From: a virus
IMG/VR virus record: IMGVR_UViG_3300003890_000014
Location: 48,814 to 112,813 of that record
DNA length: 64,000 nucleotides
Direction: 5' to 3' (one strand)
In this document: positions 7,866-62,225 of the stretch, one piece after another
Layout: each line of letters begins with the position of its first letter
Position numbering within the stretch: the first letter of the stretch is position 1
Position numbers and translations under genes: made by a program
Notes under the pieces: generated by a model
Told to the model about the DNA's origin: nothing
What the model saw: only the letters and a program-made list of their open reading frames with translations
The model's database searches: none

Positions 7866-9758
7866 TTATGTAAAAACCAGAGGGCCTTGTCCAGTTAAGG
7901 CTCCCCTATAATCAGGGCTTTCGGATGGACCACAAGTCCTACAAACACATTCAAATAAAACTTCTGGGAATGAGATCAGAAATCTAATGACTACTCCTGC
8001 TGCTAATAGCTTCTTAATGAGGTTCTGGGCAGCTTGGCGGGCTTCTTCAGTACCCACTACATAAACAGCGTAGTCTTCGCCTGTAACCCTTGGAATAGTA
8101 GGGGAATCTGAGATGAAATTAATTTTTCTTCCAATTAAATGCTCTTGTTGAAATATATAACTTGCGTCAATCAGTAAAGTAGAGTTATTTGGTCTGCTAT
8201 TGTACTGGATTGGGCCTTCCTGTTCAGACCTTCCAAAGTTCAATAGAATCTTACCTGGCTTATTGGGAAAGCTTGCTGCGTTCGCCACTGAAAGGGTTGG
8301 TACAATTGATCCGCTATTGACTGTGGTAGATAGTTCTGTACTAACTCCAGTTACAGTAAATAATTGACCAGTTGGATCAAACAAGTATGCAGAAGGATAG
8401 TCAGTCACAATAAGATCTGGATCTTGCTGTAAAGTAGTTATAAATCCTAATACTATATTTGCTGTACCTCCAGTAATTTGATACTCAGAGCTTCCTTCTG
8501 TAGTTCTTAGACCTACTTTTTTATAGTTACTTCCCTGACCGTGTGTAAAAGCTTCTAAAAATGTTAGCTGATTATTTATAACTTCTACTACCTCTTCTGC
8601 GGTCACTGCTGAAGGGTCAACAAAATCAGATGCATGAGTAAAAGTAACTGTAAAAGGATTCCCATCAATAGTTAGAGTTAAAGTAGAAGATACACCTAAT
8701 CCGCTAAAGTCAAATACTTCTTCATTAGAGTAAATTTCTAACTTATCTTGTTTAGGGTGAGCAGCACCTCTTAGGGTTCTCCTAAGAACTGGAACAGAAC
8801 TAGGAATTTTAATTACTAATTCATTAGGATTGATTTCGTAAACACTAGCTTTAACTTCAGTTTGTTTTACTAAAGAGAAATTTAGTCTTGCTGGAGTATT
8901 GGCATCGCCGCCTAAAATTTGGATAGAACCTAGTAGTCCTGGCGTATTTGTTCTTAAATTTAATTTATTTCCAGAAAGAGGATCTAAAAATTTACTGGCG
9001 GTTATATTTAAGTTGTGTTCAGGGTCAGCGTTAATAAATGCGACTAACTCATCTACAGATATATTAGTGATGTCATCAAAAGCGTAAGGTTTGAATCGAA
9101 GAGTCACTGCGGGTTTGTTATCTACTTTATAGTCAAGAGTTCTTACTATTCCTAAAGAAATATTACTGTTAATAGCGATATCACTATCCCATTCCATAGA
9201 TAGGTCAAGCTCAGTATCACTATGAATAGCCGATACTTTTTTATAAGTATATCCAGAAGCAGCTGAAGCTTTAATGTAATCTCCAGGAGCAAGTTCTGTT
9301 AGAAATAGAGTTCCTGTTCCTTTAACTCTTTTTGTTCCCTTAATAAAACTAGCTGTTCCTGTTAACAGACTTACTGGACCAAAATTATAGGTTTCAGTTG
9401 TTCCGCTATTAATATTTGGTCTTGTAAATCCAGCTCCCCAAAATACATCTAATAAAGAGATAATAGTTTTACGAACTTGTTTTGGATAAAAAGACATTAC
9501 AGGTATAAGTTTACGGAAGTCATCATCACCCATGCCTAAATTAGGGTCTCTTGGAACTCCTACGTTATTACCTAAATAATCTAGATATCTTCCTTCTGCC
9601 TGTTCCACAAACAATTGATCTTTTGTATTTTGAATCTGAACTACAATCTCATCATCAGATAATCCCCATGCCTTTAAAAGACCACGGATCATTACGTTAC
9701 TCTCAGCTTTATAAAAACTCGGCAAACTACGAGCCATTCTCTGAAATTTATCCGCCAT
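7866..9758 (-). CDS. Baseplate protein, P2 gpI-like N-terminus with added modules
   Basis: 630 residues. The first about 120 residues (MARSLPSFYKAESNVMIRGLL ... AEGRYLDYLGNNVGVPR ... FRKLIPVM) look like the baseplate tail protein I family that links J to the fibres. After this come beta modules. One near residue 150 (GTGTLFLTELAPGDYIKAS) and one near 380-440 (ASDFVDPSAVTAEEVVEVIN ... ITGGTANIVLGF) have close relatives inside the J-like protein at 10335-14690. A Cys pair (CVCRTCG) is near the C-terminus. Its ATG lies inside the last codons of an HNH gene (11-base overlap), preceded by AGGGA. Confidence 0.7.
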   Translation of the reverse strand: MADKFQRMARSLPSFYKAESNVMIRGLLKAWGLSDDEIVVQIQNTKDQLFVEQAEGRYLDYLGNNVGVPRDPNLGMGDDDFRKLIPVMSFYPKQVRKTIISLLDVFWGAGFTRPNINSGTTETYNFGPVSLLTGTASFIKGTKRVKGTGTLFLTELAPGDYIKASAASGYTYKKVSAIHSDTELDLSMEWDSDIAINSNISLGIVRTLDYKVDNKPAVTLRFKPYAFDDITNISVDELVAFINADPEHNLNITASKFLDPLSGNKLNLRTNTPGLLGSIQILGGDANTPARLNFSLVKQTEVKASVYEINPNELVIKIPSSVPVLRRTLRGAAHPKQDKLEIYSNEEVFDFSGLGVSSTLTLTIDGNPFTVTFTHASDFVDPSAVTAEEVVEVINNQLTFLEAFTHGQGSNYKKVGLRTTEGSSEYQITGGTANIVLGFITTLQQDPDLIVTDYPSAYLFDPTGQLFTVTGVSTELSTTVNSGSIVPTLSVANAASFPNKPGKILLNFGRSEQEGPIQYNSRPNNSTLLIDASYIFQQEHLIGRKINFISDSPTIPRVTGEDYAVYVVGTEEARQAAQNLIKKLLAAGVVIRFLISFPEVLFECVCRTCGPSESPDYRGALTGQGPLVFT

Positions 9759-10332
9759 AACGATTTCCCTTTTTAAGATTATCTTCGGCCCATAGCGGTT
9801 GTAAATTTGTATAACGAAATGCTTCTTTATATTGTTCGTTATCTTTTAGATTGAAAATTGATAAAGGTTTTATATGATCAATATGCCAACCATTTTTACC
9901 GTAATTATCCCAAGACATTTCTGGCTGAAATTTAGATTCTAAATGCTTTTTTAATTGTTCAAATGAACAATCTAGCGCTTCAAGTGTTGATCCTTGTTTC
10001 TGATTATTCTTTAATGCTAGTCTAATTCTTGCTCTCATATTTTGAGCCAATATAAATATTTCTCGTTCTTTACGGGCCTTTTTTTGCCAGTTATTTTGTT
10101 CTATTCTTATTTTATCTTTTCTAGTAATTTTATACACATTTGATAATTCTTTTACTCGTTCAGGATTTCGTAATCTCCATCGACGTAGTCTCTGTCTTTT
10201 AGCTTCGATATTAACTAGCTCATAACTCTTACAACACAACTTACACCAAGGATGTAATCCATCTACTCTTCGAGTTTGTTTATAAAACTCTAACAATTCT
10301 TTCTCGATATTGCATTTGCTACAAGTCTTCAT
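9748..10332 (-). CDS. HNH homing endonuclease
   Basis: 194 residues. Zinc-binding CxxC (CSKCN) at residues 4-7 and a second cluster (WCKLCC) near residue 30, then a basic helical middle, then the HNH core WHIDHIKPLSIFN and the closing NLQPLWAEDNLKKGN. The H-x-DH pair and the final Asn are the metal/catalytic residues of the family. It sits exactly between the J-like and I-like baseplate genes, with its start 2 bases after the J stop and its end overlapping the I-like start by 11 bases. That compact placement is typical of a free-standing homing endonuclease that spreads by cutting phages lacking it. Confidence 0.9.
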   Translation of the reverse strand: MKTCSKCNIEKELLEFYKQTRRVDGLHPWCKLCCKSYELVNIEAKRQRLRRWRLRNPERVKELSNVYKITRKDKIRIEQNNWQKKARKEREIFILAQNMRARIRLALKNNQKQGSTLEALDCSFEQLKKHLESKFQPEMSWDNYGKNGWHIDHIKPLSIFNLKDNEQYKEAFRYTNLQPLWAEDNLKKGNRYGG

Positions 10333-10334
10333 AA

Positions 10335-13300
10335 TTATCCAATAATTAAGTCTGAGCTATCAAGTCTGGCCAATTCTCCATCGGCCACGACTATATTAGA
10401 AGAATGATTTGAGATAGTAACATCGAAAACTCCGCCCACAGATTGAGCTGCTGTGACGATTTCAGATAAAACTACATCTTGACCCACGCCTCTTGAATTC
10501 ACATACTCTAAAATGGCATTTGAAATAGAGTCACTTACAGAACTGAGGCTGACACCTTCTTCTGTAGTTACATCGATAATAAGTTTTAATTTAACTAGTA
10601 CAGGAGCTAGGACTTCAAATTGAGTTCCGGCGGCTCCTATGCCTGGGTAATTATTTGGATCGTGATCAATTCCGTCAATAGTCCATTGTACTTTCTGAAT
10701 CAAACTTGTGAAATATTTGTATCCATCTACTCCTTCAACTTGAATATTTGAGAAATTAAATCCATTATTATCTCTAATAGTTCCGTTTCTAGCTAATGAG
10801 AATTCAGTTACATCAATAGGAGCATTTGATTGATCGTTCAAAGAAAGAGTATATGGGGCAGATGTGCCTTGAATATCTACTATATATGCTGAACTATTGA
10901 TTCTAAAAGTATCATTTATACTGATCTGATTTATCGTAGCACTTGCTAAAACAAACTGACCTGTAATATTATTATATGAGGATATAGTAGTTTTATGTCC
11001 CGCATTATTACCTGTTAAAAACTCTATAGTCATTCCAGTAAAATAAGATGGGATAGCAGAAGTTAGGACACTTGCTATAAAAGTGTCATAAGGAACTAAA
11101 GAATCTCCAGTAGTCACTGTACCATCTAATGAGATATCTACAAATAATCCTTTTGCTAATCCAGCTATTGAATTTACAGTAAGATCATTTACAGGTGAAC
11201 CTCCAGGGATGGATTGAATTGGTATTCCTATTTCATTTGCGGTTCCACCAGTCACATAAACTTTTCCTTTGCTTCCAGGTAATTTAGTGGCAAGCTGTAC
11301 AAAATCTCCGCTAATACCTACTACATCAGCATCGCCTACAATAGACAGCGTGGTGATATTAAAGTCATTAAGAAACTTAACTGCATTTTCAGCCGTTCTG
11401 GGTACAATAGAAAACTCATCGCCCGATGAAATTGGATTTGGTAAAGTATTAGGGAATATATCCTGATAGGTTATAATTCCTGAAACTCCAGAATAGGCAG
11501 TTACGAGTTGAACTGATCCTGTGTTCAAGCCTGCAGTCCAGTATATCCAAAACTCATTAAAGTATCCGGCATCAGTGTATTTAGAACCTAAAACAGAATC
11601 GGTAAAAGTACCAACTCCTACACCTGTGACTACTCCTTTTGCTTCTAAGGATACTGCAAAAGTTTTATTAAGGCTGTCGTTATCTAAAATTGCTACTAAG
11701 TTTTGTCCTGGGCCTAAAGTAAAACCTTTAGCTGCGGGATTCCCGTTTCTATCTGAGTTACCAGATTGAACAAATGCTAAGTTTGCTAATTGATTCTCTG
11801 CTTCTGTAGTAGAAAAAGCCAGAACAGAGTTTGCTAATCCACCTTTGATTTGAACTTTTCCTGAACTTTGAAAATTTCCAGTTCTAATTCTAACTTCATT
11901 GGTTAAAGTTGTTTCTGCTTTTCCACCAAATAACTGAGCATTTATTACTGCTACGACTTCAGCTGCAGTGGCATTCTGGGCATCGGCGAAATCAGATGCG
12001 TGTACAAAGTTAATAACTTGACATAATACAAATTTATCACCGTTTGAAATAGGATTTGAAAACCCTGCGATAGTTGAGATTTGTCCGGTTAAATTATTAT
12101 ATGAACTTACGAATCCTGTTTGTCCGTAGTTTGCTCCTGAAATCCATTCAATATAGAATCCATTAAATAAAGAAGCAGAATATCCAATCAACGAAGTATC
12201 TATAAAAGTATCATATGGGGCACTGCCATCTCCAATAGTCACAGTCCCATTAAATCCACCATCTATACAAACTATCAAATCCGAAGTAAGTCCAAGACTA
12301 TCAAAGTCATATAATTCAGGAATAGAATCTGAGAAGGCTCTTGTATTGATAGATCCAGCAGTTAGACTATCATTTGCAGATAAAGGAACTTGAAGTTCTA
12401 TCTGTCCATTAGATCGATTTAAAGTGTAGTCTGCATTTTTACCTTGTGAAAGAATACTGAAATTAATTTTAGAGGAGGCTACTGCTGCTCTATTTTCTCC
12501 TCTATAACCTTCAGTTAGATACAAAACTGTATCACTCTCGATACTTTCTATTTTTGTCCAAGAGCCAGCGCCATCTAGATTTGCTTTAATCCACTGTCCC
12601 TCTTGAAGATCAGAAGTAAATAAAGTTCCAGCTCCTGTTACTACCTTACTACCACCTGAGAAAGTGACAAGTCCATTGATAGAGGCAGGTATGCAAAATC
12701 CTAATGCTGTAGCAGCTCCGCCGCCAGTTACTTGCATCTTGGACATTTCGCTATTTTCTACTTCAGAAATTATTTTAATTTTAGTATTGTCTACTGCAAG
12801 TTCAATTTTTGATAAATTAAGTTCTTGTACAATTCGGTTATATACTTCTAAAGCAAGAGCTTGAGAAGGATTTGCAAAATCATTAGGACCAAATGATATT
12901 ACTTCAGTTTGCTCAATATCTCCATTAGCAGCTACTTCAAGTTGAGGGGAGTTCCAAATTACGATATTTCCTAAACCACCTCCGGCATTAGGATAAGCAG
13001 AGTCTAAAATAAATTTGGTATCTGATACTACAGTTAAAACTCTAGTATAAAATAGATCTGAGTCTCCAGAGAATTTAATGTAATCTCCAGGATGTACGAA
13101 TTGATTAAATGGATTTACTCCAGGAACAGTTTTAGTTACAATTCTAGAATTTGGAACCACTGTAATATCTGAGTCAGTAGTGGTAACAACATTAGTGCTT
13201 AAGTTAAAAGGTTGCGCTAAACTTATCAAAGAGGCAGTTAAACCATCTTTAGTGAGTAACTTATCATTTTTATAAAGTTTAAGAGTAAATACTTCTAACT

Positions 13301-45843: not shown

Positions 45844-46095
45844 ATGAAAGTAATAAACTACAGACAATTAATCATAAATCTAGAAGATGAAAAATGGCGG
45901 ATACTTTTAGTTGAAGGGGAAGAGGCAGCTAAAGTAAAATGGGAAGAAATCGATAAAAAAATTAAAAGACTTTGGAAGTGGAGTTCTCAAGAACCTTCTA
46001 CTTTCTTTAGGCCCATACTTCGCTTAATTACAACTAAACAAAATTTAAGGGTGATAAAGAATGAAAGTTTGGAGCCAAGGCAAGATCCTAAATAA
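45844..46095 (+). CDS. Small protein, first gene of early operon
   Basis: 83 residues, basic and Trp-containing (EEIDKKIKRLWKWSSQEPST). RBS AAAGGA five bases before the ATG. Its 3' end overlaps the aminotransferase start by 35 bases. No family recognised. Confidence 0.6.
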   Translation: MKVINYRQLIINLEDEKWRILLVEGEEAAKVKWEEIDKKIKRLWKWSSQEPSTFFRPILRLITTKQNLRVIKNESLEPRQDPK

Positions 46096-46951
46096 TAAAG
46101 CTCCTATTGATAGCTTTAACTATGCAATGCATTATGCTTGTCCAGTTGTTTGGGAAGGTATTCGTTCGTATAAGCAAGATGATGATACTACCAAAATTTG
46201 GAAACTTAAAGATCATATAGATCGTCTTTTTGATTCAGCTAAAGTTTTAGATATTAAAATCCCATACTCCAAAGCTGAAGTAGAACAAGCTTGTGAAAAT
46301 ATTGTACAAGCTTCAGGAGGGGGAGATCTTTATCTTAGACCCATTGTTTATCCAAATAAAGACGCCGAGTCTATTAAACCATCTATAGATGAAATAAGAC
46401 TTGATATATATTGTTGTCCAGTACCCCCATTTCATCCTTCTAAAGAAAATGGCATTAAAGCTAAAATTTCTTCTTTAGTACGAAGTTACCCACAATATAA
46501 TATGCAGGCAAAAACAGCAGCAAATTACAATTTTATTCAGCTCGCAAGACAAGAACTCCAGAATGGGGTAGAAGATGTGTTTCTGTTAGATGCTCAAGGA
46601 TATATAGTAGAGGCGATAGTAGCCAATATTTTTCTAGTTAAAGGAGACGTGATTATGACCCCTCCAAATGCAGGAAGTATTCTTCCTGGAATTACTCGTA
46701 GATATATAGCTGAGATTTTGCAAGACGCATCTAAAATGTTTTCTAAGTATAAAAAGGTGCCACTAGTAGTAGAAAAAAATATCACTAGAGCCGATGTTTA
46801 TACAGCTGATGAGATTTTTCTTACTGGAACTTATGCAGAAATAGTTCCTGTAATTGAAGTTGATTCTAGAATTATTGGAGAAGGAAAGCCAGGATTTTAT
46901 ACTAAACTTCTGAAATATGAATATTTAAAAGCAGTAAAGGGACAAAAATGA
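46061..46951 (+). CDS. ilvE: Branched-chain amino acid aminotransferase (fold-IV PLP enzyme)
   Basis: 296 residues, normal length for IlvE. Signatures in order: FNYAMHYACPVVWEGIRSYK; R54 in HIDRLFDSA; pyridoxal lysine K151 in QAKTAANYNF; E184 in YIVEAIVANIF; PGITRRYI phosphate cup at 209-216; LTGTYAEIVPVIEVDSRIIG with GEGKPG near the end. Catalyses transamination of Leu, Ile and Val with 2-oxoglutarate. D-amino acid transaminase and aminodeoxychorismate lyase share the fold, but the WEGIRSY and GTYAEIVPV stretches favour BCAT. Starts with AAGGGTG upstream. Rare in phages; could supply or drain branched-chain amino acids during infection. Confidence 0.88.
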   Translation: MKVWSQGKILNNKAPIDSFNYAMHYACPVVWEGIRSYKQDDDTTKIWKLKDHIDRLFDSAKVLDIKIPYSKAEVEQACENIVQASGGGDLYLRPIVYPNKDAESIKPSIDEIRLDIYCCPVPPFHPSKENGIKAKISSLVRSYPQYNMQAKTAANYNFIQLARQELQNGVEDVFLLDAQGYIVEAIVANIFLVKGDVIMTPPNAGSILPGITRRYIAEILQDASKMFSKYKKVPLVVEKNITRADVYTADEIFLTGTYAEIVPVIEVDSRIIGEGKPGFYTKLLKYEYLKAVKGQK

Positions 46952-49144: not shown

Positions 49145-49173
49145 TTGACTACGTCGGGTTAAAAATGTAAAGT
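49145..49173 (+). promoter_or_regulatory. Promoter of the DGC/RNR operon
   Basis: TTGACT (49145-49150) with ACGTCGG directly after, 17-base spacer, TAAAGT (49168-49173). Start near 49180, leader about 12 bases with GGAG. Member of the TTGAC-NNN-GTC promoter set in this window. Confidence 0.75.
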
Positions 49174-49191
49174 ATTGGTATGGAGTAGAAT

Positions 49192-49521
49192 GTGCCAAGA
49201 AATTTAGAACAAAAAGTAGCAATCCTTCAAGAAGACATTCGGACTCTTAATACCCTTGAGGCAAGAAGGAAGATAATTAACTTTGTTCTAGAAGAGATAG
49301 CCTTTTCTGAAGCACAGCATAGTGTAACAGAGTGGGATTTGACTGCAATGCAGTCTAACGCAGTCAACGAGTTTAACCAAGCTAATGCTTCAGCTCTCAA
49401 TATTGATCCTTCGTCTCTTAGAGTTTGGTGTTTGTTACAAGCTTTTGTCGGTTTTTTGAATAGAGAAGGGCTGATAAAATTCACATTAGAACTCAAAAAA
49501 AAGGAAATGAGGAACGTATGA
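49192..49521 (+). CDS. Unknown helical protein coupled to diguanylate cyclase
   Basis: 109 residues starting at GTG with GGAG six bases upstream. Mostly helical (NLEQKVAILQEDIRTLNTLE; ALNIDPSSLRVWCLLQAFVG). The stop overlaps the ATG of the diguanylate cyclase gene (ATGA), so the two are coupled. No family recognised; a partner or regulator of the cyclase is possible. Confidence 0.6.
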   Translation: MPRNLEQKVAILQEDIRTLNTLEARRKIINFVLEEIAFSEAQHSVTEWDLTAMQSNAVNEFNQANASALNIDPSSLRVWCLLQAFVGFLNREGLIKFTLELKKKEMRNV

Positions 49522-50345
49522 AGTTACCCTTTAGAGTAGAGCCAAAAGAGTCCTTAGAGATAGCATTTAAAGAAACTCTAGCACAACAAAAAACTGGAGA
49601 TTTATATGTTGTTTTTATTGATGGAAATTCTATTAAAAAAGTAAACGACATTTTTGGACACCTTACAGGTGATTTTGTAATCTACGAAATAGCAGAGACT
49701 ATTGTTAATAACTTAAGGTTTAAAGATCGAATTATTCGATTTGGTGGAGATGAGTTTGTACTTCTAATTAACAATTATGAAGGTTCTCATATTAAGAATT
49801 TTATTGCCCGAATTCAAACTAAAATTCGTCAAAACAATAATATTTTACAAAAGCTAAACCAACCCGTTACAGTTTCAGCAGGCGTAGTTAAATACGATAA
49901 AACCATTCATTCAGACCTAACATCAGTACTAAATGATGCGGACAAACTAATGTATGCCGCTAAAAGCGATCCTCCAGCATTTTTGAAAGTTAGCGGAGAT
50001 AAAGTGAAAGAATCACTTGACCTTCAAAATAGACGAAAATTAGACACTTCTTCAAAGCGTTTAAGGAGTTTATTTACTTGGGTAGTATGCACATTAACTA
50101 ACGAAAATCCTGAGTATGATTTAGATATTTTAACCGAAGCAGTTAGAGAAATTTGGAGAATAAATGGAAAAAAGATTTTATATAAATCTTCTATAAATGA
50201 GGTGGTACAATTAGTTAAATCTAATTATATTGTTTTATTTGGTCGTAAAAAACCAACTACGACGCAAAATACAAACTTTAGACAACAAATTATTAAAGAG
50301 TTGAATGATTTTTTACAGGATTATAAAGATAAGAAGGTATCTTAA
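49518..50345 (+). CDS. Diguanylate cyclase (GGDEF domain)
   Basis: 275 residues. Residues about 25-165 are a complete GGDEF domain: VVFIDGNSIKKVNDIFGHLT with metal Asp35, intact active site GGDEF at 76-80 (IIRFGGDEFVLL), and a consensus inhibitory site RFKD at 67-70, five residues before it. SAGVVKYD and LNDADKLMYAAK complete the fold. The remaining about 100 residues (LFTWVVCTLTNENPEYDLDI) match no domain I know. No sensor or membrane segment, so activity would be constitutive apart from product inhibition. Predicted to make c-di-GMP from two GTP and so change host motility, biofilm or lysogeny choice. Confidence 0.85.
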   Translation: MKLPFRVEPKESLEIAFKETLAQQKTGDLYVVFIDGNSIKKVNDIFGHLTGDFVIYEIAETIVNNLRFKDRIIRFGGDEFVLLINNYEGSHIKNFIARIQTKIRQNNNILQKLNQPVTVSAGVVKYDKTIHSDLTSVLNDADKLMYAAKSDPPAFLKVSGDKVKESLDLQNRRKLDTSSKRLRSLFTWVVCTLTNENPEYDLDILTEAVREIWRINGKKILYKSSINEVVQLVKSNYIVLFGRKKPTTTQNTNFRQQIIKELNDFLQDYKDKKVS

Positions 50346-50552
50346 ATGGATGTTAGATTTCAAAAACAACTCATAGAACTTAGTTTAAAAACCGCAGAAG
50401 CTGAAAAAGCTAGAGGTAGCATAGGTTTGTATGAGATTTTTAAAGCTCAAGCTGATAGAATTCAAGCAGAATTAGATAAGTATTTAAGTACGTTACCAAA
50501 ATGTAAAAAGAAAACATCTAAGAGGAGAAAAAAACGTGTTCAAAAAAGGTGA
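50346..50552 (+). CDS. Small basic helical protein
   Basis: 68 residues; helical (LIELSLKTAEAEKARGSIGL) with a strongly basic tail (KCKKKTSKRRKKRVQKR) suited to nucleic-acid binding. Overlaps the next gene by 17 bases. Family unknown. Confidence 0.55.
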   Translation: MDVRFQKQLIELSLKTAEAEKARGSIGLYEIFKAQADRIQAELDKYLSTLPKCKKKTSKRRKKRVQKR

Positions 50553-50859: not shown

Positions 50860-50902
50860 TAAAAATTAAATTCGCTAAAGTAAGATGAAGTTAGGAGCAG
50901 CT

Positions 50903-52780
50903 ATGAATTACTTTACAGACCCAGCATCTGAGTTTGTGTATGTGCGAACGTATTCAAGATGGATCGAAAGTCTAAGTCGAAGAGAGACTTGGCCTGAAAC
51001 AGTCGATAGATATATCAACTTTTTAGATACTCAAAGAGGAGAAATCATTACTCAAAAAGTTCTTAAAAAAATAAAAAAGTATATGTTATCTTTTGACGTA
51101 ATGCCTTCTATGAGAGCTGTTTGGGCTTCTGGACCCGCAGCTAATCAAGATAATACCACAATATTTAATTGTGCTTTTGCTGAGATGGACTCGATAGAGT
51201 CTTTTGCAGAGTGTCTTTACATTTTAATGTGTGGAACTGGATTTGGTTTTTCTGTTACAAAAGAAGCTATTGAAAAACTACCAGTAATTCCAATTTTCTC
51301 AGTCTCTCCTGATCCTGAGATAATAGTAATAGAGGATAGTAAAAAAGGATGGGCAGACAGCCTTAAAATCCTTCTGACTAGACTTTATAGCGGAAAATGC
51401 AATATTCACTTTGATTACTCTAAAATTAGACCAGAAGGAGCAAGACTAATGACTATGGGGGGTAGAGCCTCCGGTCCAGACCCTCTACGTCGTTTACATG
51501 AATTTATTAGTCATATGTTTGCTAGTGCTCAAGGTCGCAAACTAACATCTCTTGAAGTACACGACATATGCAATAAGATTGCTGAAATAGTAGTCGTAGG
51601 GGGTGTTCGTCGATCTTCTCAAATTTCTTTATCTGATCTTACCGATGAAGAAATGAGATCTGCAAAAAATCCTCCATTCCCTCCTCATAGGTTCATGGCT
51701 AATAATAGTGCTATCTATGATAAAAAACCCGATGCAGTGACTTTTCTTAAAGAGTGGGCATCGCTCGCATCAAGTGGTTCTGGAGAAAGAGGTATTTTTA
51801 ATCTAGCAGGAGCTAAAACAAAAGCCCCAAAGCGTAGAGATACTTCACTTATTAGAGGCACAAATCCATGCGCTGAGATTATGCTTAGAGATAAAGAGTT
51901 TTGTAATTTATCTGAAGTAGTTATTAAAGCAAATGATGATGTAGATACACTTTTGGATAAAGTGGAGACAGCCACTTGGATTGGGGTCATTCAAGCAACT
52001 TTCACCCATTTTCCTTATCTCAGAAAAAAATGGAAACAAAATTGCGATGAAGAGCGACTTTTAGGAGTTAGCCTGACTGGTCAGATGGATAATCCAGAAC
52101 TTCTAGTCCCCGACGTCCTAAAAGCTTTAAAGCGCAAAGCTTTAAAAGTAGCTAAACACGCATCTGATAAGTTAGGCATTCCAATGCCAGCAGCAGTGAC
52201 TTGTGTTAAACCTAGTGGTACAGTCTCTCAACTAGTAAATTCAGCAAGCGGCCTCCATGCAAGGCATTCTGATTACTATATTAGGAGATATCGAATTTCA
52301 GCCAATGATCCATTATTCGCCATGCTTAGAGATCAATCTGTTCCTCTAAAACCTGAAGTAGGTCAAAATTTTGAGAATGCAACAACTTGGGTAGTAGAGT
52401 TTCCAATTAAGTCTCCAGAAGATTGCGTAACTAGAAATGATGTAACAGCTATTGAGCAACTCGAACACTACAAAAAATTACAAGAAAATTGGTGCGAGCA
52501 TAATGCTTCTGCCACTATCTATGTTAAAGATTCAGAATGGTTTGAAGTAGGTAATTGGGTATACAGGAATTGGGAATATATCAATGGGGTATCATTTTTA
52601 CCTCATGATGGGGGCATTTATGAGCTTGCCCCTTATGAAGAAATAACCAAAGAAGAGTATGAAAAGCTTATAAAAAATTTTCCTAAAATCGACTACTCTC
52701 AACTTAGTAAATATGAATTAGAGGATAATACTCAAGGTTCTCAGGCACTCGCTTGTGTTGCTGGAATATGCGAAATTTGA
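50903..52780 (+). CDS. nrdJ: Class II (B12-dependent) ribonucleotide reductase
   Basis: 625 residues from ATG 50903, chosen because AGGAG lies five bases before it (the ATG at 50885 has no site). Monomeric RTPR type: radical-site Cys and partners C90 (FNCAF), C323/E325 (TNPCAEIML) and C334, with the 11-residue spacing of the Lactobacillus enzyme; GGVRRS and TVSQLVNSASGLHARHSDYY; C-terminal redox pair C618/C623 (CVAGIC). Reduces ribonucleoside triphosphates using adenosylcobalamin and needs no oxygen. Shorter than the 739-residue model enzyme. With dUTPase and ThyX it forms a nucleotide-supply group. Confidence 0.92.
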   Translation: MNYFTDPASEFVYVRTYSRWIESLSRRETWPETVDRYINFLDTQRGEIITQKVLKKIKKYMLSFDVMPSMRAVWASGPAANQDNTTIFNCAFAEMDSIESFAECLYILMCGTGFGFSVTKEAIEKLPVIPIFSVSPDPEIIVIEDSKKGWADSLKILLTRLYSGKCNIHFDYSKIRPEGARLMTMGGRASGPDPLRRLHEFISHMFASAQGRKLTSLEVHDICNKIAEIVVVGGVRRSSQISLSDLTDEEMRSAKNPPFPPHRFMANNSAIYDKKPDAVTFLKEWASLASSGSGERGIFNLAGAKTKAPKRRDTSLIRGTNPCAEIMLRDKEFCNLSEVVIKANDDVDTLLDKVETATWIGVIQATFTHFPYLRKKWKQNCDEERLLGVSLTGQMDNPELLVPDVLKALKRKALKVAKHASDKLGIPMPAAVTCVKPSGTVSQLVNSASGLHARHSDYYIRRYRISANDPLFAMLRDQSVPLKPEVGQNFENATTWVVEFPIKSPEDCVTRNDVTAIEQLEHYKKLQENWCEHNASATIYVKDSEWFEVGNWVYRNWEYINGVSFLPHDGGIYELAPYEEITKEEYEKLIKNFPKIDYSQLSKYELEDNTQGSQALACVAGICEI

Positions 52781-52924: not shown

Positions 52925-53212
52925 ATGTCTTGGGAATTAATTTTTCTTTGTTTGAGTGCGAATTACTATACAGAAGTAATTCCTACTTATACTAAAGATA
53001 TTAAACCAGTTTTCCAGAAGCATTGTGCGCAGTGCCATAATGCCAATTGGCAAACTAAAAACTGGATGGTCTATAAGACGGCATTTATTAATAGGGATTT
53101 AATTAGAACCAGAGTTCAGCAAAGAACTATGCCACCTGGAAACCTAACTAATATGACCCCTATAGAAAAAGATTTAATAATTCAATGGGTAGATAAAGGA
53201 GCAAAAGAATGA
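52925..53212 (+). CDS. Single-haem c-type cytochrome domain protein
   Basis: 95 residues. TYTKDIKPVFQKHCAQCHNA contains the haem-binding C34-x-x-C37-H38; RTMPPGNLT gives the distal ligand M69; IQWVDKGAKE is the closing helix of the fold. Short N-terminal hydrophobic stretch (ELIFLCLSAN) could be a weak signal peptide, needed because haem is attached in the periplasm. RBS GGAGG. Phage-encoded cytochromes are very unusual; related domains occur in planctomycete-type and Bacteroidota cytochromes. Role unknown. Overlaps the dUTPase start (ATGA). Confidence 0.8.
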   Translation: MSWELIFLCLSANYYTEVIPTYTKDIKPVFQKHCAQCHNANWQTKNWMVYKTAFINRDLIRTRVQQRTMPPGNLTNMTPIEKDLIIQWVDKGAKE

Positions 53213-59672: not shown

Positions 59673-60175
59673 AATCCAAATTAATGTGCATAGCCGCACT
59701 ATTTTTATCTCCAACTGTATATGCAGATTCGTATGCACGATACGGGGTGGGACTTTCTAAATCCGCCAAGAATAGTTTTTCAGAAACTAAAACTTTAGGA
59801 TTTGGGTACACAAATAAGATGTTTGAACTTAGACAACTATCTTTCCTAGCATATCAATATGAAGGAGGTTTTTGGGTGGATTCTCAAAGACAAGAAGGTA
59901 GAAAAGACTCTTTATATGGAAGCGCATCTTTAGGACTAGATATTTTAGCAGATTCTTTTAGAGTTACATCAATGCATGGAATCGGGTTGATCTCTAGTCC
60001 AGATACTTATTTAGGCAGTCATGGACAATTTTTTCATGATGTATGTTTAGGTCTTCAAGATGACGTAAATAAGGCAAATATTAGTTTATGTTACAAACAT
60101 ATCAGTAATGCTGGAATAGTTCCTCCTAATATAGGTAGGGATTTCATGTCGATTAAACTTGGAATACATTGGTAG
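59669..60175 (+). CDS. PagL-like lipid A deacylase
   Basis: 168 residues. Signal peptide MKSKLMCIAALFLSPTVYAD; alternating beta strands fitting an 8-stranded outer-membrane barrel (FELRQLSFLAYQYEGGFWVD; SLYGSASLGLDILA). H144 and S146 in YKHISNAGIVPPNIG match the catalytic His-Ser motif of PagL 3-O-deacylases, with N147. PagL removes the 3-O-acyl chain from lipid A at the cell surface; a phage copy would remodel LPS during infection or lysogeny. Implies a Gram-negative host. Confidence 0.75.
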   Translation: MKSKLMCIAALFLSPTVYADSYARYGVGLSKSAKNSFSETKTLGFGYTNKMFELRQLSFLAYQYEGGFWVDSQRQEGRKDSLYGSASLGLDILADSFRVTSMHGIGLISSPDTYLGSHGQFFHDVCLGLQDDVNKANISLCYKHISNAGIVPPNIGRDFMSIKLGIHW

Positions 60176-60183
60176 GAGGCAAT

Positions 60184-60867
60184 ATGAAGAAACTAGTAAT
60201 TATATTTTTAGTAATGTTTTTAGTTGGATGTGAAGGTCAACCTGGACCTCAAGGTCCGGCGGGTGATCCTGGTCCTCAAGGTCCTCCTGGAATTGCAGGC
60301 ACAAATTGTACTGTAGCACCAACTCCAGGCGGGGCTGAAATTACTTGTTCAAATGGAGCAGTAGTAGTTTTAAACGGTTCCGATGGCCAAAATGGAAATA
60401 ATGGTAACGATGGCCAAAATGGAAATCGTTGGTTCAATACTACGGTTCACGGTCCTGTACACGACTCTTATGGGTACGATAATGATTATTATTTAGATTC
60501 TACTACTGGAGATGTTTATTTTAAAGCTTCTGGTACATGGGCTTCTCCAGTATTTAATATTCGTGGTCCACAAGGTATTCAAGGTCCCGTAGGACCACAA
60601 GGACCTACTGGAGCAGCAGGGACTTGTAGTAGTTCAAATTTTTTTACCGTGAGTTCTAATGTAAATGCAGCGTCAATCACCGTAAATTGTGGCACAGGCA
60701 AAAAGGCTATTTCAGGCGGAGGCAACTGCGGCGGCGGAAAAAATCTACAAAAAAGTTGCTCTTCTAACTCAGGAGCAACTTGTAATAATTCCTTACCAGA
60801 TCAATATTGGACTATTACATGTTCAGGAGCTAACGCAGCTAATACTGCTTATGCGATTTGTTTATGA
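60184..60867 (+). CDS. Collagen-like lipoprotein
   Basis: 227 residues from the ATG at 60184 (GGAGG before it). Lipobox LVGC at 13-16, then Gly-X-Y runs GQPGPQGPAGDPGPQGPPG, GSDGQNGNNGNDGQNGN and later GPQGIQGPVGPQGPTGAAG. C-terminal Cys-rich Gly/Asn domain (GGGNCGGGKNLQKSCSSNSG). Likely a trimeric surface stalk on the host cell. Phages carry collagen repeats mostly in fibres; a lipid-anchored one is unusual. Confidence 0.75.
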   Translation: MKKLVIIFLVMFLVGCEGQPGPQGPAGDPGPQGPPGIAGTNCTVAPTPGGAEITCSNGAVVVLNGSDGQNGNNGNDGQNGNRWFNTTVHGPVHDSYGYDNDYYLDSTTGDVYFKASGTWASPVFNIRGPQGIQGPVGPQGPTGAAGTCSSSNFFTVSSNVNAASITVNCGTGKKAISGGGNCGGGKNLQKSCSSNSGATCNNSLPDQYWTITCSGANAANTAYAICL

Positions 60868-61340: not shown

Positions 61341-61549
61341 CCTTAATAGAAAAAGCAGCAGAATTCGCAAAAGAAGCCCATAAAGAACAGCGACGGAAAT
61401 ACACCAACGAACCTTATTTCGTTCATTGCCATGAGGTAGCTAAAATTGTCGAGTCAATTGGTGGAACACCCTAAATGATAGCAGCAGCGTATTTAAATGA
61501 TTTGATTTATTCAGTTTATTCTGATATTGTTAAAGAGAACGAGGATTAA
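61337..61549 (+). pseudogene. Decayed HD-domain (RelA/SpoT-hydrolase-like) gene
   Basis: In one frame: LIEKAAEFAKEAHKEQRRKY, TNEPYFVHCHEVAKIVESIG, then GGTP-stop (TAA 61472-61474), then MIAAAYLND. This is the start of an HD_4-type ppGpp hydrolase family (HKEQRRK...PYFVH...VAKIV). An ATG expected at the deformylase stop (ATGA) now reads ATA. After AAAYLND the family continues with H-D...DT, but here the frame is LIYSVYSDIVKENED and stops at 61549. Start loss, internal stop and truncation make it a pseudogene. Confidence 0.75.
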
Positions 61550-61550
61550 A

Positions 61551-62225
61551 ATGAAAAAAATAGTTTTATTGATAACTATCGCTGGTTTAGCGATTTCAAT
61601 GATTGCCGCTACCCCCTCTCATAATATAGCAGAATATACCTATAATGTAGCGGGAGCTAACGGAGCAAGAGGTACGGGGTTTATAGTAAACTATAAACTA
61701 TCAACCTACTTTATCACCAATTGGCATGTATGTAATCACACAATTGACAATCATCTTCAGGTGTATGTAAATCCAGAAAAATCAGTATCTTTAGAAATTA
61801 TTAAACAAGATTCAGTACATGATCTTTGTGCTGCGGCAATGAGACCTTTAAAAGGAATACCCGTAGCCAACTACTCATATTACGATCAATATGCAGAATC
61901 TGCAGGATTTCCTGGAGGATCAAAGGATGTTGTATCTACTTCTGGAATCATTCTAAAAGAGTTAGATGTGATGTTAAATTATCCTAGACCAATTCAGGGT
62001 TGCCCTAAAAATACCCAAGCTGTTATTAGAGATAAGAATGTTCTTTATTGTCGAATTAAAATGAGAGTACAAGACACGACCTTACCAGGCCGTCCTGGAG
62101 TTTCTGGTTCTCCCGTGGTAGATTCTAAAGGAAATCTTATTGGAGTTGTGAATAGTACTAATGATAATACTGTGAGTATGATTCCATTAAGACATGTTCG
62201 AGAGTTCTTAGATTCCCTTAAGTAA
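61551..62225 (+). CDS. Exported trypsin-like serine protease
   Basis: 224 residues from the ATG at 61551. Signal peptide (MKKIVLLITIAGLAISMIAA), then catalytic triad H59 (ITNWHVC), D91 (SVHDLCAAA) and S187 (PGVSGSPVVDSKGNLIGVV). The fold resembles periplasmic DegP-like/V8-like proteases without PDZ. Four Cys could form disulfides. Likely works in the periplasm or outside on host or competitor proteins. Confidence 0.85.
   Translation: MKKIVLLITIAGLAISMIAATPSHNIAEYTYNVAGANGARGTGFIVNYKLSTYFITNWHVCNHTIDNHLQVYVNPEKSVSLEIIKQDSVHDLCAAAMRPLKGIPVANYSYYDQYAESAGFPGGSKDVVSTSGIILKELDVMLNYPRPIQGCPKNTQAVIRDKNVLYCRIKMRVQDTTLPGRPGVSGSPVVDSKGNLIGVVNSTNDNTVSMIPLRHVREFLDSLK

Follow-up and report, generated by a model that had tools for sequence, protein, structure and literature searches.

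The window, the whole stretch of viral DNA analyzed here, comprises 64,000 nucleotides (bases 48814-112813 of a 112,813-bp IMG/VR viral record). It carries on its plus strand a gene for a 109-residue helical protein, hereafter the partner, followed by a gene for a 275-residue GGDEF protein. The partner open reading frame starts with GTG at 49192 and the cyclase frame with ATG at 49518, each behind a plausible ribosome-binding site. Both frames, with their ATGA overlap, lie where a preliminary description of this DNA had placed them, as confirmed from the sequence. The features of the locus, in window coordinates, are as follows.

49145..49173, + strand: promoter-like TTGACT-N17-TAAAGT, a copy of the recurrent motif TTGACWAYGTC-N12-TANNNT
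49180..49191, + strand: ribosome-binding-site-like GGAG before the partner GTG, read from the sequence
49192..49521, + strand: 109-aa predicted helical protein, clade core gene, with GTG start and ATGA overlap with the cyclase gene
49518..50345, + strand: putative GGDEF diguanylate cyclase, 275 aa (Pfam PF00990, Foldseek folds, mapped catalytic residues), with the catalytic domain at about residues 10-150 and a helical C-terminal domain at about 160-275
49620..49622, + strand: Asp35 codon, equivalent of PleD D327 (metal ligand), by residue mapping
49671..49673, + strand: Asp52 codon at the PleD D344 position, which governs guanine specificity (Ser/Thr in Hypr enzymes), by mapping and PMC9140294
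49716..49727, + strand: RFKD (residues 67-70), RxxD inhibitory-site motif, by mapping; HPDE in the L014 homologue
49743..49757, + strand: GGDEF (residues 76-80), active-site loop, by mapping
49992..50342, + strand: C-terminal region with predicted helices at residues 163-196, 202-223, 226-241 and 252-273; alike only in the L014 homologue

Active site and C-terminal region of the GGDEF protein

Is the 275-residue protein a diguanylate cyclase? Its match to PF00990 spans residues 10-150 and is too strong to be due to chance (E = 7.6e-27; 94.5 bits against the Pfam cut-off of 23.8). It also matches NCBIfam TIGR00254 (E = 9.7e-27), and it is the sole GGDEF protein in the 112,813-bp record. Structure prediction, which had been proposed for both proteins, gave a GGDEF fold for the cyclase (best Foldseek match 4zvf, E = 1.1e-10, TM 0.79 by target length), and a PDB sequence search returned the GGDEF protein of Thermotoga maritima (4urg, 4urs) as top match (E = 3e-17).

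Mapping onto PleD revealed that the ligand positions D35, K40, N43 and E79 are kept along with the GGDEF loop; the roles of PleD positions other than D344 are general background. The residue numbering given earlier (GGDEF at 76-80, D35, and RFKD at 67-70 with a five-residue spacing to GGDEF) is correct. The metal-binding Asp, the equivalents of Lys332, Asn335, Asp344 and Glu370, and the GGDEF motif are identical in the window protein and in those of two related phages, L014 and L012. Identity of these signature residues across three diverged GGDEF proteins argues for selection on catalysis. An RxxD inhibitory site (I-site) five residues before GGDEF reads RFKD in the window protein and RKND in that of L012; L014 has HPDE instead, so that feedback inhibition is not a feature of the family. 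The earlier view held up: the protein looks like an intact diguanylate cyclase, has an I-site, and has no N-terminal sensor domain.

The protein also departs from the usual pattern. The N-terminal DxLT motif, common in GGDEF domains and treated here as not strictly defining, is missing from the window cyclase (its PF00990 match starts at model position 16) and from the L014 homologue. Four residues after the phosphate-binding Lys, an Arg is replaced by Pro; this position is presumably the equivalent of PleD R446, a phosphate contact. In the alignment, the T. maritima cyclase likewise lacks that Arg. No dimerization domain was recognized in the window cyclase.

With regard to the product, Asp at the PleD D344 position has been associated with strict c-di-GMP producers and Ser/Thr with Hypr enzymes that make cGAMP (PMC9140294). 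In each of the clade's three GGDEF proteins, this residue is Asp. This GTP-specific Asp, together with the receptor and HD-GYP domains that the L012 operon adds (see below), makes c-di-GMP the likely product of the window protein.

The C-terminal region of about 110 residues had no match in INPHARED or the PDB, and its model is of low confidence (pLDDT about 40-68, by block). Scans with the window and L014 cyclases returned general GGDEF proteins, and the tail was matched along its length in L014 alone, at 23% identity. The tail had been described as matching nothing known, which is correct for INPHARED and the PDB, but it is common to this one related phage. A GGDEF domain with a helical tail and no DxLT motif appears to be new as an architecture.

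The partner, its promoter, and neighboring genes

The partner is predicted to be all-helical (pLDDT 79). Neither sequence nor fold searches gave it a significant PDB match, all fold matches having E > 1; the weak, nonsignificant ones include sigma-factor domains, and a match to KorA stayed below threshold.

Taken singly, the −35/−10 site at 49145-49173, with its score of 9 of 12, does not rise above chance. Its extended form, TTGACWAYGTC-N12-TANNNT, was found at four places in the record (window positions 49145, 54821, 58957 and 63623), whereas 100 first-order Markov sequences had none, and a fifth match to the motif core lies at record position 10943. Because it recurs, always on the plus strand and within the block of accessory and nucleotide-metabolism genes, the motif probably represents a phage promoter class. 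A close relative that has no cyclase, L008, carries an alignable TTGACT-N17-TAAAGT before its partner gene; hence, the promoter belongs to the transcription unit of the partner and not to the cyclase. The dedicated early promoter proposed previously is thus present as a motif-type site but is not dedicated, and early expression of the locus would follow from its position. Separately, GACNNNGTC at the −35 region of the motif forms an inverted repeat, a possible operator.

Several other genes, in the window and in other records, drew our attention. A class-IV aminotransferase of the branched-chain type (window 46061-46951, +; PF01063, E = 4.9e-41) is found in all seven clade records and shares at most about 34% identity with INPHARED proteins among the matches listed. 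By its matches to RNR_Alpha and the class II insertion domain, the ribonucleotide reductase at window 50885-52780 (+) belongs to the B12-dependent type; in the corresponding region L008 has a reductase of similar size that is clearly divergent (L008:1750-3618, −). A 95-aa protein (window 52925-53212, +) contains a CxxCH heme motif, unusual in a phage, with a subthreshold match to cytochrome c (PF13442, E = 1.5e-4). A 232-aa collagen-like protein with GPQGPxG repeats and a lipoprotein-type signal sequence is encoded at window 60169-60867 (+). Trypsin-like proteases (PF13365) with hydrophobic N termini, possibly exported, lie at window 61527-62225 (+) and L002:13886-14782 (−). Record L002 also encodes a 669-aa GHKL-ATPase reminiscent of T4 rIIA (8930-10939, +; HATPase, E = 1.8e-5). 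In record G000, the N terminus of a 573-aa frame (G000:C1:38882-40603, −), VKQTLGPGGNPIIL, reads by eye like a GroEL-type chaperonin.

The locus in related phages

Scans of IMG/VR with the cyclase or the partner singly returned no relatives. Relatives were recovered through the major capsid protein, which yielded a clade with about 73-80% capsid identity as well as more distant phages; profile scans with the partner and with the aminotransferase added no contigs beyond these. A phage-database search for the gene pair had been suggested: the single-protein scans failed to find it, and the capsid route did, in L014. A GGDEF gene is present at the partner locus in three of the seven clade records that cover it, in each case downstream of the partner and near it; a search of 10 other related viral records found none. 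Every GGDEF-bearing unit of the clade has a promoter-like site ahead of it.

A profile detects the partner family throughout the seven clade records that span the locus, with only its C-terminal half left in two of them; the ten other related records searched, mostly more distant ones, gave no match. The partner and the class-IV aminotransferase are all that these seven records have in common in the region. Four of the seven have the partner without any GGDEF gene. This persistence weakens the claim of a coupling between the cyclase and the 109-aa protein, which was made from the window alone. The 109-aa protein is most likely a separate clade-core protein on a shared transcript and not an obligate cofactor, and the conserved family appears to be new. 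Given the recurrent adjacency, a functional link between the two proteins is possible.

L014 encodes an orthologous cyclase with GGDEF domain and tail, 32% identical overall to that of the window, with all catalytic residues kept. The two proteins share an N-terminal segment, LP..EPKE..E.AF, and a C-terminal pattern, FT....T.....PE.....L...VR..WR. The L014 cyclase has a promoter-like site of its own, TTGACA-N17-CATACT, between partner and cyclase, so the two may be expressed separately there.

The third phage, L012, whose capsid protein is 74% identical to that of the window phage, has a different set of genes after the partner. An apparent operon (L012:1357-3787, − strand) with a near-consensus promoter-like site upstream holds three almost abutting genes, for PilZ, receiver-GGDEF and HD-GYP proteins. 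The PilZ protein (E = 3.3e-6) has RxxxR and DxSxxG, the receiver-GGDEF protein is 305 aa long (GGDEF, E = 4.2e-36), and the HD-GYP protein (HD_5, E = 2.2e-27) has HHExxNGxGYP. By their domains, these genes would bring together a c-di-GMP receptor, synthase and phosphodiesterase; we found no earlier report of such a phage set in the openly licensed literature. The 305-aa protein matches PleD over the receiver and GGDEF domains but has Gly in the receiver where the phosphoacceptor Asp is expected. Kinase control is therefore improbable, and this receiver-GGDEF protein is probably free of it, in parallel with the sensorless window enzyme. The L012 GGDEF protein has no helical tail and is no orthologue of the window and L014 enzymes; thus, c-di-GMP genes probably entered the slot behind the partner at least twice.

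The cyclase is missing from the close relatives L005 and L008 and is therefore dispensable in the clade. A capsid and aminotransferase tree groups the window phage with L005 and L008, and L014 with L009 and L011, none of these four relatives having a GGDEF gene. Support on this tree is weak to moderate (54-81), and the distribution of the cyclase on it looks patchy. We found no support for the idea that the gene at 50346-50552 is a homologue of the gene after the L008 partner, as in a clean insertion. Distant capsid homologues in Myxococcales, Gemmatimonadetes, Sulfuricurvum and Desulfobacterales assemblies gave no host prediction; in the phylum of the Myxococcales match, 6 of 284 genomes had capsid homologues. 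A hint of Bdellovibrio, from a comparison of the L012 HD-GYP protein with Bd1817, was dropped, the N-terminal half being not significant.

Known systems and the likely role of the locus

SiaC is a small activator protein encoded with the diguanylate cyclase SiaD, and the window cyclase has the SiaC-SiaD complex (7e6g) among its fold matches. The partner differs from SiaC in that it has no SiaC sequence or fold match and frequently occurs where no cyclase is present, so that neither SiaC homology nor dedication to the cyclase was found. The T. maritima protein (4urg, 4urs) and further structures of stand-alone GGDEF proteins have the same catalytic layout, but they are cellular enzymes whose solved chains stop shortly past the GGDEF domain, with no such helical extension.

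GGDEF proteins in phages are a known kind. They had been called rare, a fair description, although clear precedents such as phage LK3 exist. Comparable by description are those of Yuavirus and Vojvodinavirus. The YuA cyclase is described, in the passage cited, as a short GGDEF-only protein (PMC10333796), and lysogens of the Bordetella phage LK3, which has a GGDEF gene, are described in the cited passage as overproducing biofilm (PMC8471281). These are temperate siphoviruses with known hosts, and the passages cited report no helical C-terminal domain, partner gene, or PilZ or HD-GYP neighbors. Bacillus phage G, a large myovirus, encodes gp350, annotated "GGDEF motif diguanylate cyclase," which is 33% identical to the window protein over residues 28-157; the match stops short of the C-terminal region, and the gene context is unlike. 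Bacillus phage SP-15, likened by description, is another large myovirus with a diguanylate cyclase (PMC5977210), and GGDEF proteins occur in sargassum-associated viruses (PMC11295528). YIP peptides of PB1-like Pseudomonas phages are described, in the passage cited, as raising c-di-GMP through YfiN (De Smet et al. 2021, in PMC9145820); there the host YfiN is activated, whereas the window phage encodes the enzyme itself. Most INPHARED matches of the cyclase were unannotated fecal contigs or bacterial-looking records and were excluded as phage evidence. Two further viral proteins of 416-434 aa (L101:3293-4594 and L103:3305-4552, +) end in a divergent GGDEF-like domain (MDANDFKSINDELGH, HRFGGDEF) and possibly form a separate phage GGDEF family. 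Against this background, a recurrent c-di-GMP locus that includes a receptor-synthase-phosphodiesterase set appears to be new.

The domain, its motifs, the gene order and their recurrence in relatives are all visible in the DNA, and the reading that we hold to be reasonably probable builds on them: the window protein would be an active, sensorless cyclase that makes c-di-GMP from GTP, most likely shifting the host from motile to settled. Expressed from the block of nucleotide-metabolism and accessory genes, it would convert GTP to c-di-GMP in the infected cell, and c-di-GMP could feed back through the RxxD site in the window phage. The helical C-terminal domain would probably provide dimerization or partner contact, as N-terminal domains do in other cyclases. 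Raised c-di-GMP would turn off flagella or pili and change the envelope or exopolysaccharide to the benefit of the phage; infected cells would be expected to lose motility and take on surface or biofilm physiology. No c-di-GMP riboswitch (none reached threshold) and no PilZ, EAL or HD_5 domain was found in the window phage, so its c-di-GMP readers must be the host's; L012 would bring its own reader and eraser.

Alternatively, the partner and the c-di-GMP enzymes may be one system, the partner being a c-di-GMP-tuned adaptor or effector with interchangeable enzymes behind it, for instance a regulator that binds RNA polymerase or DNA, or an activator as SiaC is for SiaD. The close downstream position of GGDEF in all three phages, even though the L012 genes are nonorthologous, fits this idea, as do the translational overlap in the window and the partner's weak sigma-factor and KorA matches. 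We nevertheless regard it as doubtful, since the partner is kept without any c-di-GMP gene in four of seven records and has no significant sequence or fold match, L014 has its promoter-like site between the two genes, and adjacency may reflect a mere insertion hotspot. Such a hotspot could by itself explain the locus, if the slot behind the partner collects accessory genes and the c-di-GMP genes have little or no selected role. Slot content does vary between most relatives, and the patchy placement of the cyclase, on a weakly supported tree, agrees with this. We consider cargo of this sort unlikely because catalytic residues are kept at 32% identity and because c-di-GMP functions recur at this one locus in three of seven genomes, with GGDEF in none of the 10 other relatives.

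Could the domain bind GTP or c-di-GMP without catalysis? The missing DxLT, the missing Arg and the lack of a known dimerization domain would suit a degenerate GGDEF protein. In degenerate domains of this family the GGDEF motif itself is usually lost, but the metal, guanine and GGDEF residues are intact in the window and L014 proteins, and we judge this quite improbable. Least probable is a protein that makes another cyclic dinucleotide, as Hypr enzymes do, including in Bdellovibrio (PMC9140294), or that decoys, floods or blocks host nucleotide-signaling immunity, where the decoys in the passage cited are used by the host (PMC12657218): the specificity residue is Asp52 and not Ser/Thr in all three proteins, the L012 PilZ and HD-GYP domains fit c-di-GMP, and PADLOC matches were weak and incidental.

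Beyond an active cyclase acting on host readers, a bolder version is conceivable, though we think it rather unlikely: a dedicated c-di-GMP locus of the clade, in which the helical protein is the phage's own c-di-GMP-linked effector followed by interchangeable modules, ranging from a single sensorless cyclase to a complete set for making, breaking and reading the signal (receiver-GGDEF, HD-GYP and PilZ). If true, the virus would operate a second-messenger circuit of its own in the host, beyond disturbing the host's. The GGDEF protein with helical tail and the 109-aa family, not described in the libraries searched, are concrete targets for biochemistry, and clade members with and without the module make a natural comparison available. 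In many bacteria, c-di-GMP decides between swimming and settling, and a phage synthase, joined in a relative by a likely degrading enzyme and a receptor domain, would offer a direct way into the reprogramming of this choice by phages. These data suggest that the viruses of this clade with c-di-GMP genes probably steer the motile-or-settled decision of their hosts during infection.
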